64,000 bases of DNA from Arenicola marina (lineage: Eukaryota; Annelida; Polychaeta; Arenicolidae). The notes beneath the pieces are model-generated. The model was given only the letters and a program-made list of their open reading frames with translations, did not search any database and was not told the origin of the DNA. The position numbers were made by a program, and so were the translations under genes. Position 1 is the first letter of the stretch. The number at the start of each line of letters is the position of its first letter. Shown piece after piece: positions 41,925-44,900 of this stretch. The stretch spans positions 27,202,352 through 27,266,351 of the forward strand of contig OZ025257.1 of NCBI GenBank assembly GCA_964019135.1. Direction: 5' to 3'.

Positions 41925-44900
41925 GTGCTGGCGGCGAACACCTCGTTCAGCTGCTGGGTTACCCGGATGAAGGTGGTCCGCTTGCTGAGCTCCTTTAGTT
42001 GGGAGGCGCCCACGTAGGTACAGGTGGAGCGGACCCCGCCCAGGACATCCTGGAGGGTGCCCTCCACGGGGCCCCGGTACGCTATCTCCACCACCTTGCC
42101 CTCAGACGCCCTGCAACCCATATATAGTATATAAACCACGTGGCTGGACCGCGGGAGAGCTTGGTGGTCAATAATCACCCGTCAGTTATACATTAATACT
42201 CGAGGAGACACTATTCGATACCCTGAAAAGCTTGATGCGCTTACTTGCCACAAACAACGCCATTAACTCGGTAGGCATTTTTGGGGTCGTTCTTCCATCT
42301 AAAGGAGAACCATTGTTTCAGTATAGCTGACGCCTATAATTTACTAGAATAATCCATTTTGTGGGGTCTAACATGGCAGCTATACTTGTAACGCAAGTTC
42401 ACTAAGAGAAACCAAGGTCAAAATGTTACGGGTTTTCTTACATATCGATTTGTTATTCTTGTGATACCATAGGAATGATGGCGTAACAGCAAATGAACTC
42501 AGTTTTCAGTTTCACTCCTTACACAACACAGCCCTTTACCCTGGCCCTGGCCCACACGTACCTGTACTCGGCCACGGCCCCAGCGTACTTCTTCATTGCG
42601 GCAGCCGAGGCCATGCCGTAGAACTGCTTCAGTTTCCTGCCGTTCTTCTCGATGAGTTCGCCCCCGGACTCGTCATGTCCGGCCAGCATGCCCCCCAGCA
42701 TAACGAAGTCGGCGCCGGCTCCGAAGGCCTTCGATACGTCCCCGGGACAGGTACAGCCGCCGTCCTGGACAACATAAGACCAAGGGCTAATTCAAAGTGA
42801 GTCGTTCTCATGGATATGCGATGGTATGCCCTTCAGCGCTGGAGAAAGGACACGAGGCATTCATTCATAGTGACGTTCCTTCCCAAGGTTGGATTGTTTT
42901 TTAAGCTACCCCTGCGTGCACATTGGCGAAGAAACATAGTAGCCAATTCAAACACGACCGCTTACCGAGATGATGTGTCCGCCACTAAAACGAGACGACC
43001 GCTTACCGAGATGACGTGTCCGCCGCTAAAGCGACACGACCGCTTACCGAGATGATGTGTCCGCCACTAAAGCGATACGACCACTTCCGAGATGATGTGT
43101 CCGCCGCTAAAGCGAGACGACCGCTTACCGAGATGATGTGTCCGCCGCTAAAGCGACACGACCGCTTACCGAGATGATGTGTCCGCCACTAAAGCGATAC
43201 AACCACTTCCGAGATGATGTGTCCGCCGCTAAAGCGACACGACCGCTCACCGAGATGACGTGTCCGCCGCTAAAGCGAGACGACCGCTTACCGAGATGAT
43301 GTGTCCGCCACTAAAGCGAGACGACCACTTCCGAGATGATGTGTCCGCCGCTAAAGCGAGACGACCGCTCACCGAGATGATGTGTCCGCCACTAAAGCGA
43401 GACGACCGCTTACCGAGATGATGTGTCCGCCACTAAAGCGAGACGACCGCTTACCGAGATGATGTGTCCGCCACTAAAACGAGACGACCGCTTACCGAGA
43501 TGACGTGTCCGCCGCTAAAGCGACACAACCGCTTACCGAGATGATGTGTCCGCCGCTAAAGCGATACGACCACTTCCGAGATGATGTGTCCGCCGCTAAA
43601 GCGACACGACCGCTCACCGAGATGACGTGTCCGCCGCTAAAGCGAGACGACCGCTTACCGAGATGATGTGTCCGCCACTAAAGCGAGACGACCACTTCCG
43701 AGATGATGTGTCCGCCGCTAAAGCGAGACGACCGCTCACCGAGATGATGTGTCCGCCACTAAAGCGAGACGACCGCTTACCGAGATGATGTGTCCGCCAC
43801 TAAAGCGAGACGACCGCTTACCGAGATGATGTGTCCGCCACTAAAGCGAGACGACCGCTTACCGAGATGATGTGTCCGCCACTAAAGCGAGACGACCGCT
43901 TACCGAGATGACGTGTCCGCCGCTAAAGCGACACGACCGCTTACCGAGATGATGTGTCCGCCACTAAAACGATACGACCACTTCCGAGATGATGTGTCCG
44001 CCGCTAAAGCGACACGACCGCTCACCGAGATGACGTGTCCGCCGCTAAAGCGAGACGACCGCTTACCGAGATGATGTGTCCGCCACTAAAGCGAGACGAC
44101 CACTTCCGAGATGATGTGTCCGCCGCTAAAGCGAGACGACCGCTCACCGAGATGATGTGTCCGCCACTAAAGCGAGACGACCGCTTACCGAGATGATGTG
44201 TCCGCCACTAAAGCGAGACGACCGCTTACCGAGATGATGTGTCCGCCACTAAAGCGAGACGACCGCTTACCGAGATGATGTGTTCGCCACTAAAACGAGA
44301 CGACCGCTTACCGAGATGACGTGTCCGCCGCTAAAGCGACATAACCGCTTACCGAGATGATGTGTCCGCCGCTAAAGCGACACGACCGCTTCCGAGATGA
44401 TGTGTCCGCCGCTAAAGCGACACGACCGCTTACCGAGATGATGTGTCCGCCACTAAAGCGACACAACCGCTTACCGAGATGATGTGTCCGCCACTAAAGC
44501 GACACAACCGCTTACCGAGATGATGTGTCCGCCACTAAAGCGACACAACCGCTTACCGAGATGATGTGTCCGCCACTAAAGCGACACGACCGCTTACCGA
44601 GATGATGTGTCCGCCGCTAAAGCGACACAACCGCTTACCGAGATGATGTGTCCGCCACTAAAGCGATACGACCGCTCAGCGAGATGACGTGTCCGCCGCT
44701 AAAGCGACACGATCGCTTACCGAGATGATGTGTCCGCCCAGCCCGTGGGCCGCATCCGCACACTCTATGACGGCGCTGAGCTGCGGGTAGCCCACGCCCG
44801 TCTTCTTGCGGGTGGTGCACACAGACCCAGGGCCGATGCCAACCTTGATGATATCGGCTCCCGCCAGAATGAGCTCCTCCACCATCTCACCCGTCACCAC

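Follow-up and report, generated by a model that had tools for sequence, protein, structure and literature searches.

The closest described counterparts of the array analysed here are the "mirage" minisatellites of amphioxus, which in the excerpted text of PMC3087553 are reported from the globin genes BflGb6 and BflGb9, with Adh3 of B. floridae and B. lanceolatum cited as further cases. According to the same excerpts these repeats are unstable in length and in the soma without disturbing regular splicing, and the AG/GT splice signals are kept by many, not all, of the repeats (PMC3087553). Lancelet PGBD5 and troponin C are added as mirage cases in the part of PMC3902484 available to us. We examined a 64,000-nucleotide stretch of DNA from the annelid Arenicola marina (contig OZ025257.1; the whole stretch is called the window below), in which intron 5 of a GMP reductase gene (GMPR) is built almost entirely from tandem copies of its own splice donor junction. 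The original prediction, made from the letters of this stretch, had given the name mirages for junction minisatellites of amphioxus Adh, and the two papers, as far as their excerpts go, bear that out. The GMPR array is such a mirage: its unit spans an exon-intron boundary, the authentic junction is the terminal unit, and many but not all copies keep the splice signals.

The host gene has seven exons on the minus strand, from 49715 to 41915 of the window. The protein joined from them has 351 residues and is GMP-reductase-like over its full extent; residues 1-346 align to human GMP reductase 2 (E 2e-183), and this alignment runs across the joint of exons 5 and 6 (..GHIISDGGC). The exons and the elements of intron 5, in window coordinates, are:

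49629..49715, minus strand, GMPR exon 1
46328..46447, minus strand, GMPR exon 2
45934..46017, minus strand, GMPR exon 3
45266..45439, minus strand, GMPR exon 4
44721..44909, minus strand, GMPR exon 5, 63 codons (...GLGGHIIS), with the 3' end ...GGCGGACACATCATCTCG followed by GTAAGC
44715..44720, minus strand, exon-proximal donor GTAAGC, the sole intact unit donor yielding 351 residues
42765..44720, minus strand, GMPR intron 5, 1956 bases, ~90% array
42954..44738, minus strand, donor mirage made up of 44 units (41 or 40 bp), with 10-unit (408-bp) higher-order blocks, delimited by Tandem Repeats Finder (TRF)
42562..42764, minus strand, GMPR exon 6 (DGGCTCPGD...)
41915..42110, minus strand, GMPR exon 7, through the last codon, with the stop next

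TRF delimits the array at 42954-44738 with a period of 41 and 43.7 copies (score 2968, from which we infer a tandem structure far above chance) and detects a higher-order period of 408 bp with a score of 3106. Read on the minus strand it resolves into 44 units, 8 of 40 bp and the others of 41 bp, the final one grading into unique sequence. In a typical unit, 18 exon 5 bases and a donor hexamer are followed, ten bases on, by CTTTAG or TTTTAG and a further base. Unit 1 is the authentic junction of exon 5 and intron 5, continuous with the exon. The 18 bases that end exon 5 come back in the units; over the 43 units compared, 16 of these 18 sites do not vary. Both the unit alignment and the protein joint thus bear out the predicted unit, with its 18 exon bases, its donor and the real junction as terminal copy. 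The hexamers are GTAAGC (29), GTGAGC (6), GAAGTG (7), GAAGCG (1) and CTGAGC (1), so that the donor is intact in 35 of the 44 units and lost in nine, eight of them lacking the donor T and one reading CTGAGC. The predicted "about 44 copies" of a 41-bp donor unit therefore stands as a count of units, but not as a count of intact donors or as a uniform length. The CTTTAG said to precede each exon-like piece closes 39 units and TTTTAG another four, 43 of 44 in all. Together the copies make up about 1767 of the 1956 bases of intron 5; the other 189 bases precede the acceptor.

A dispersed satellite inserted into intron 5 was considered as a source and rejected: a three-unit, 123-base probe, searched against the whole genome with very common words skipped, matched no other locus, and all 19 of its 19 matches lie inside the GMPR array. 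This confinement makes it most likely that the unit arose locally, from the junction itself. Together with the presence of the exon 5 end in the array, it supports the original prediction, which derived the array from repeated duplication of the boundary. The subsequent history can be glimpsed in the 20 unit types found among the 44 units. Pairs of identical units peak at lags of 9 (8/35), 10 (8/34) and 19 (7/25), which agrees with block-wise exchange and with the 408-bp period, and the repeated blocks of unit types suggest turnover, within the one assembly. Copy number in such arrays is hard to assemble, and that of GMPR may be inexact. We nevertheless give almost no credence to an over-collapsed or over-expanded repeat, as the diversity of unit types, the position of the array within a 43-Mb contig between non-repeated flanks, and the presence of arrays with unrelated units on other junctions (below) make the structure itself hard to explain as an artefact.

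What such an array means for splicing can be read from the frames. Each of the 35 intact donors was joined to exon 6: donor 1 yields the 351 residues, and the remaining 34 all terminate after codon 232, even where the added length is divisible by three. The predicted single frame-keeping donor is thus found as described. The layout of most units, in which an AG and a donor flank a 19-nt piece, lends itself to another reading, namely that the copies serve as micro-exons that can be selected, or as decoy donors, and so tune GMPR output; the original prediction had raised the micro-exons. Three successive 19-nt pieces (57 nt) would keep the frame. We also read 43 single inclusions, taking as each piece the stretch between an AG of the array and the intact donor that follows it; one of them, 60 nt long and running from the first AG as far as the donor of the third unit, leaves the frame open, with a stop after codon 371. 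The other 42, however, break it (19 nt in 34 cases, 59 nt in 8), the CTTTAG pseudo-acceptors score -1.5 to 0.4 on our own simple acceptor scale versus 8.5 for the true acceptor, nine of the 44 donors are lost, and folding of 291 nt of the array as RNA showed nothing unusual (z 1.23). We therefore find little support for micro-exons and regard a function of the array as very unlikely. Exon definition likely uses the exon-proximal donor, and the remaining copies would then be removed with the intron.

GMPR is not alone in this. The ACTR6 (ARP6) gene, identified by a match of 5e-21 to a solved ARP6, carries a second donor mirage in the same window:

22584..23607, minus strand, donor mirage of ACTR6 intron 8, 38-bp unit, 27 copies, overlapping 6 exon bases (GAACAG followed by GTGTGA)
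23602..23722, minus strand, ACTR6 exon before the mirage, ending ...KAQGSEQ

An IMPDH gene, located on contig C1 by a search with the IMPDH family, has arrays in several of its introns. Intron 10 opens with a 67-bp unit repeated 13 times, each copy with 52 exon bases and the donor; intron 6 closes with an array of 39-bp units, 71 in number, that carry the acceptor and extend 3 bases into the exon; and in intron 2 a 30-bp unit is repeated 264 times from a point 10 bases past the donor. GMPR and IMPDH belong to one superfamily and have their donor mirages (that of IMPDH at L009 5049-5937) in a similar protein region, at different intron positions; the similarity of region is probably a coincidence.

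Taken together, these arrays are in our view fairly probably explained, for GMPR, as a neutral mirage, a by-product of a repeat-rich genome with short introns that is spliced from the exon-proximal donor, where donor use, neutrality and the mechanism of expansion are what we infer. The founding minisatellite unit would by chance have bridged the 3' end of exon 5 and the beginning of an intron of ~0.2 kb. Local tandem duplication would first have given a few copies, which unequal exchange or slippage could then have enlarged and shuffled in ten-unit blocks. All later copies would be intronic and would leave with the lariat. The array would be tolerated since exon 5 would still be defined by its proximal donor, with the later copies confined to the intron. 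Mirages would recur in this genome because minisatellites are abundant and many introns short, and in a short intron a random duplication of 40-70 bp would often reach a splice site. Tandem arrays account for 35.3% of the bases (61 arrays) in a 200-kb sample of 20 regularly spaced 10-kb stretches from one chromosome (C1), and the ACTR6 intron 8, IMPDH intron 10, GMPR intron 5 and IMPDH intron 2 measure 153 to 304 bases when taken without their arrays. This heavy load, together with the short introns, may be enough to explain the mirages. Three of the 20 samples (C1 at 20.0, 46.6 and 65.6 Mb) are nearly end-to-end a single array, with units of 52, 38 and 64 bp.

Whether arrays cover junctions more often than chance placement would have them do, which the original prediction had proposed as a check for donors, was assessed in 43 introns of 6 genes (SLC7A, with few exons found, was excluded). 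Some splice ends were picked by score and are approximate, such as those of ACTR6 intron 5 and PSMB5 intron 4. Arrays are present in 9 of the 43 introns, in 12 rows, some of which overlap each other in pairs (IMPDH intron 1, CLYBL intron 3), and they cover three donors and one acceptor. In the null model the founding unit was dropped randomly into introns taken without their arrays. Over the 12 rows this gives 1.99 expected junction overlaps versus 4 observed (p 0.105), and 1.70 versus 3 without GMPR (p 0.22); for donors without GMPR, 2 are observed versus 0.85 expected (p 0.20). Chance could produce what this small sample shows, and the motif counts over the whole genome, described next, are ambiguous, so that this comparison lends the predicted link between arrays and donors no firm backing.

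Three tandem copies of CAGGTAAGT occur 1857 times in the genome versus 447 for the reversed motif (4.2-fold), while the single motif stands at 14053 versus 5841 (ratio 2.4). For AAGGTGAGT in tandem the counts are 1768 versus 183 (9.7-fold), with 10958 versus 6101 for the single motif (ratio 1.8). The shuffled control was made from AAGGTGAGT alone and counted in tandem, and it was also compared with CAGGTAAGT by place. It reaches 1138 matches and its reverse 1316, and since motifs of the same composition thus range from 183 to 1316, the 1768 of the donor motif is not far outside them; the claim of a donor hot spot from the tandem excess was dropped on these two counts. The acceptor motif TTTTACAGG in tandem has 589 matches versus 102 reversed, 503 of the 589 on one strand, and the first 100 among the matches listed come from four places. 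In the consensus units of 88 arrays, AGGTRAG occurs in none and its reverse in three, and GGTRAGT in two, as does its reverse.

Several observations weigh against a purely neutral origin. Donors are overlapped by 3 of the 12 array rows versus 1.00 expected (p 0.064), and the five large arrays without GMPR overlap junctions 3 times versus 1.29 expected (p 0.094). Among the matches listed on C1, counted by place, 5 places carry AAGGTGAGT and 0 the shuffle within the first 19.8 Mb, and 5 carry CAGGTAAGT and 2 the shuffle within the first 46.1 Mb; these counts favour the donor motif, though donors outnumber shuffles from the start. The exon-like part of the units also varies less than the intron-like part. 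Variable sites number 2 of 18 versus 10 of 23 in GMPR (p 0.019; 43 units, the last omitted), 3 of 6 versus 27 of 32 in ACTR6 (p 0.025; 26 units, some unit ends misaligned), and 10 of 52 versus 5 of 15 in IMPDH (p 0.16, direction unchanged; 13 units), and Fisher's combination over the three genes, done by hand, gives about 0.004. This is the most interesting lead of the analysis, as a cleaner exon-like half should not be expected of inert copies, with mutation context lying outside the test. The true exon could re-seed the copies, or mutation could merely differ by context.

These same observations are what speaks for growth targeted to junctions, in which donors would be hot spots that start or feed tandem duplication, with conversion from the true exon as one conceivable route. 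The IMPDH intron 2 array, starting so close to its donor, fits such a process, as does the excess of tandem over reversed motifs beyond the single-motif ratios. Yet the donor p values run from 0.06 to 0.20, the shuffle and its reverse come near the donor counts, matches bunch by dozens in single arrays, real donors raise the motif frequency beforehand, and the array consensus units show no surplus of donor motifs over their reverses. Targeted growth thus seems to us unlikely. We would likewise put forward only tentatively, as an improbable idea, that junctions in this annelid are routinely engulfed by minisatellites (4 of the 43 introns) and that the supply of copies comes from the coding side, through re-seeding by the real exon, which would leave the exon-like half cleaner. 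If this were true, the spliceosome would have to pick the exon-proximal donor strictly from dozens of near-identical ones, with mirages a main way in which such genomes lengthen their introns.

Further arrays of the same kind may exist. Exon-like frames entering the 5' edge were sought in 94 arrays, giving 19 candidates with GMPR and ACTR6 at the top and an array beside CLYBL third; the scan is insensitive, because it missed the real IMPDH junction. A coding-score ranking of 314 kb served gene finding only. The CLYBL-side array (window 34550-35727) has 17 copies of a 69-bp unit upstream of the gene, with the donor-like CTCAGGGTGAGAGG or a close variant in most units, and may be a mirage formed on a 5' exon without coding sequence; no homologous exon was found in support, in a Pfam test that is weak, the first ~11 residues of the query being foreign to the locus. 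Two long arrays, at C1:331021-336484 and C1:605781-612276, with 41- and 39-bp spacing and AAGGTGAGT and CAGGTAAGT in many units, may be donor mirages of very large size. A 21-bp array of 97 copies (window 50753-52798), upstream of GMPR exon 1, has long open frames that read as repeated MYVEQLA-like text. ACTR6 exon 1 (MAVLVLDNGGYTAKIGY...) is duplicated on the minus strand at window 29449-29517 and 28540-28590, ~930 bases apart, and the two copies have matching flanks and few differences.

In the same assembly, the mitochondrial contig (15,942 bases) reads on one strand, in frames as read, ND4L-ND4-ND1-ND3-ND2-COX1-COX2-COX3-ND6-CYTB-ATP6-ND5, an order of the annelid type that speaks against amphioxus as the source. 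A search for the GFP family likewise brought no match, which by itself says little, 14 control genomes having given none either. Pfam supports 9 of the 10 mitochondrial genes scanned (ND2 by a general antiporter family only), with no match for ND6; COX1 was found by family, and COX3 lay outside the scan. The small contigs C390, C504 and C536 hold five kinesin matches in long intronless stretches with in-frame TAG/TAA and no TGA, a ciliate-type code pattern that may point to another organism as their source.

Compared with known systems, the GMPR array resembles the intronic minisatellites of earthworm metallothionein in that an annelid intron is filled by a minisatellite, but those have longer units (means 178 and 181) and lie in the first intron, and a junction-containing unit is not described in the excerpts (PMC12783039). 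The intron gain of potato RdRp likewise traces intron change to gene sequence duplicated in tandem; in GMPR, by contrast, an existing intron was lengthened and no new one formed (PMC4974935). In lancelet PGBD5, 60- and 108-bp tandem repeats coincide with 5' and 3' splice sites, although in the accessible part of the paper the repeats are few and imperfect, a triplication being mentioned for the 108-bp unit (PMC3902484). Closest are the amphioxus mirages, which in the excerpts of PMC3087553 share with GMPR the partial retention of AG/GT signals and unit lengths of tens of bp (10-72 bp in Adh3). The present host, unlike theirs, is an annelid, and the copies are far more numerous, with 44 at the GMPR donor and 71 at the IMPDH acceptor versus 6 or 3 units in two BflGb6 haplotypes; the higher-order blocks of the GMPR array, and a sampled genome of which about a third is tandem repeat, also set the present case apart from what those excerpts describe. 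A search of the open-licence literature, outside which most subscription papers lie, brought up no mirages in annelids or other hosts that could be recognised from titles and the starts of abstracts. The GMPR, ACTR6 and IMPDH arrays thus extend mirages, which we found described in that literature only for amphioxus, to annelids, with larger copy numbers and in several genes at once; with some 35 nearly identical donors, set apart chiefly by how far each lies from the exon, GMPR provides a natural system for testing donor choice by the spliceosome.
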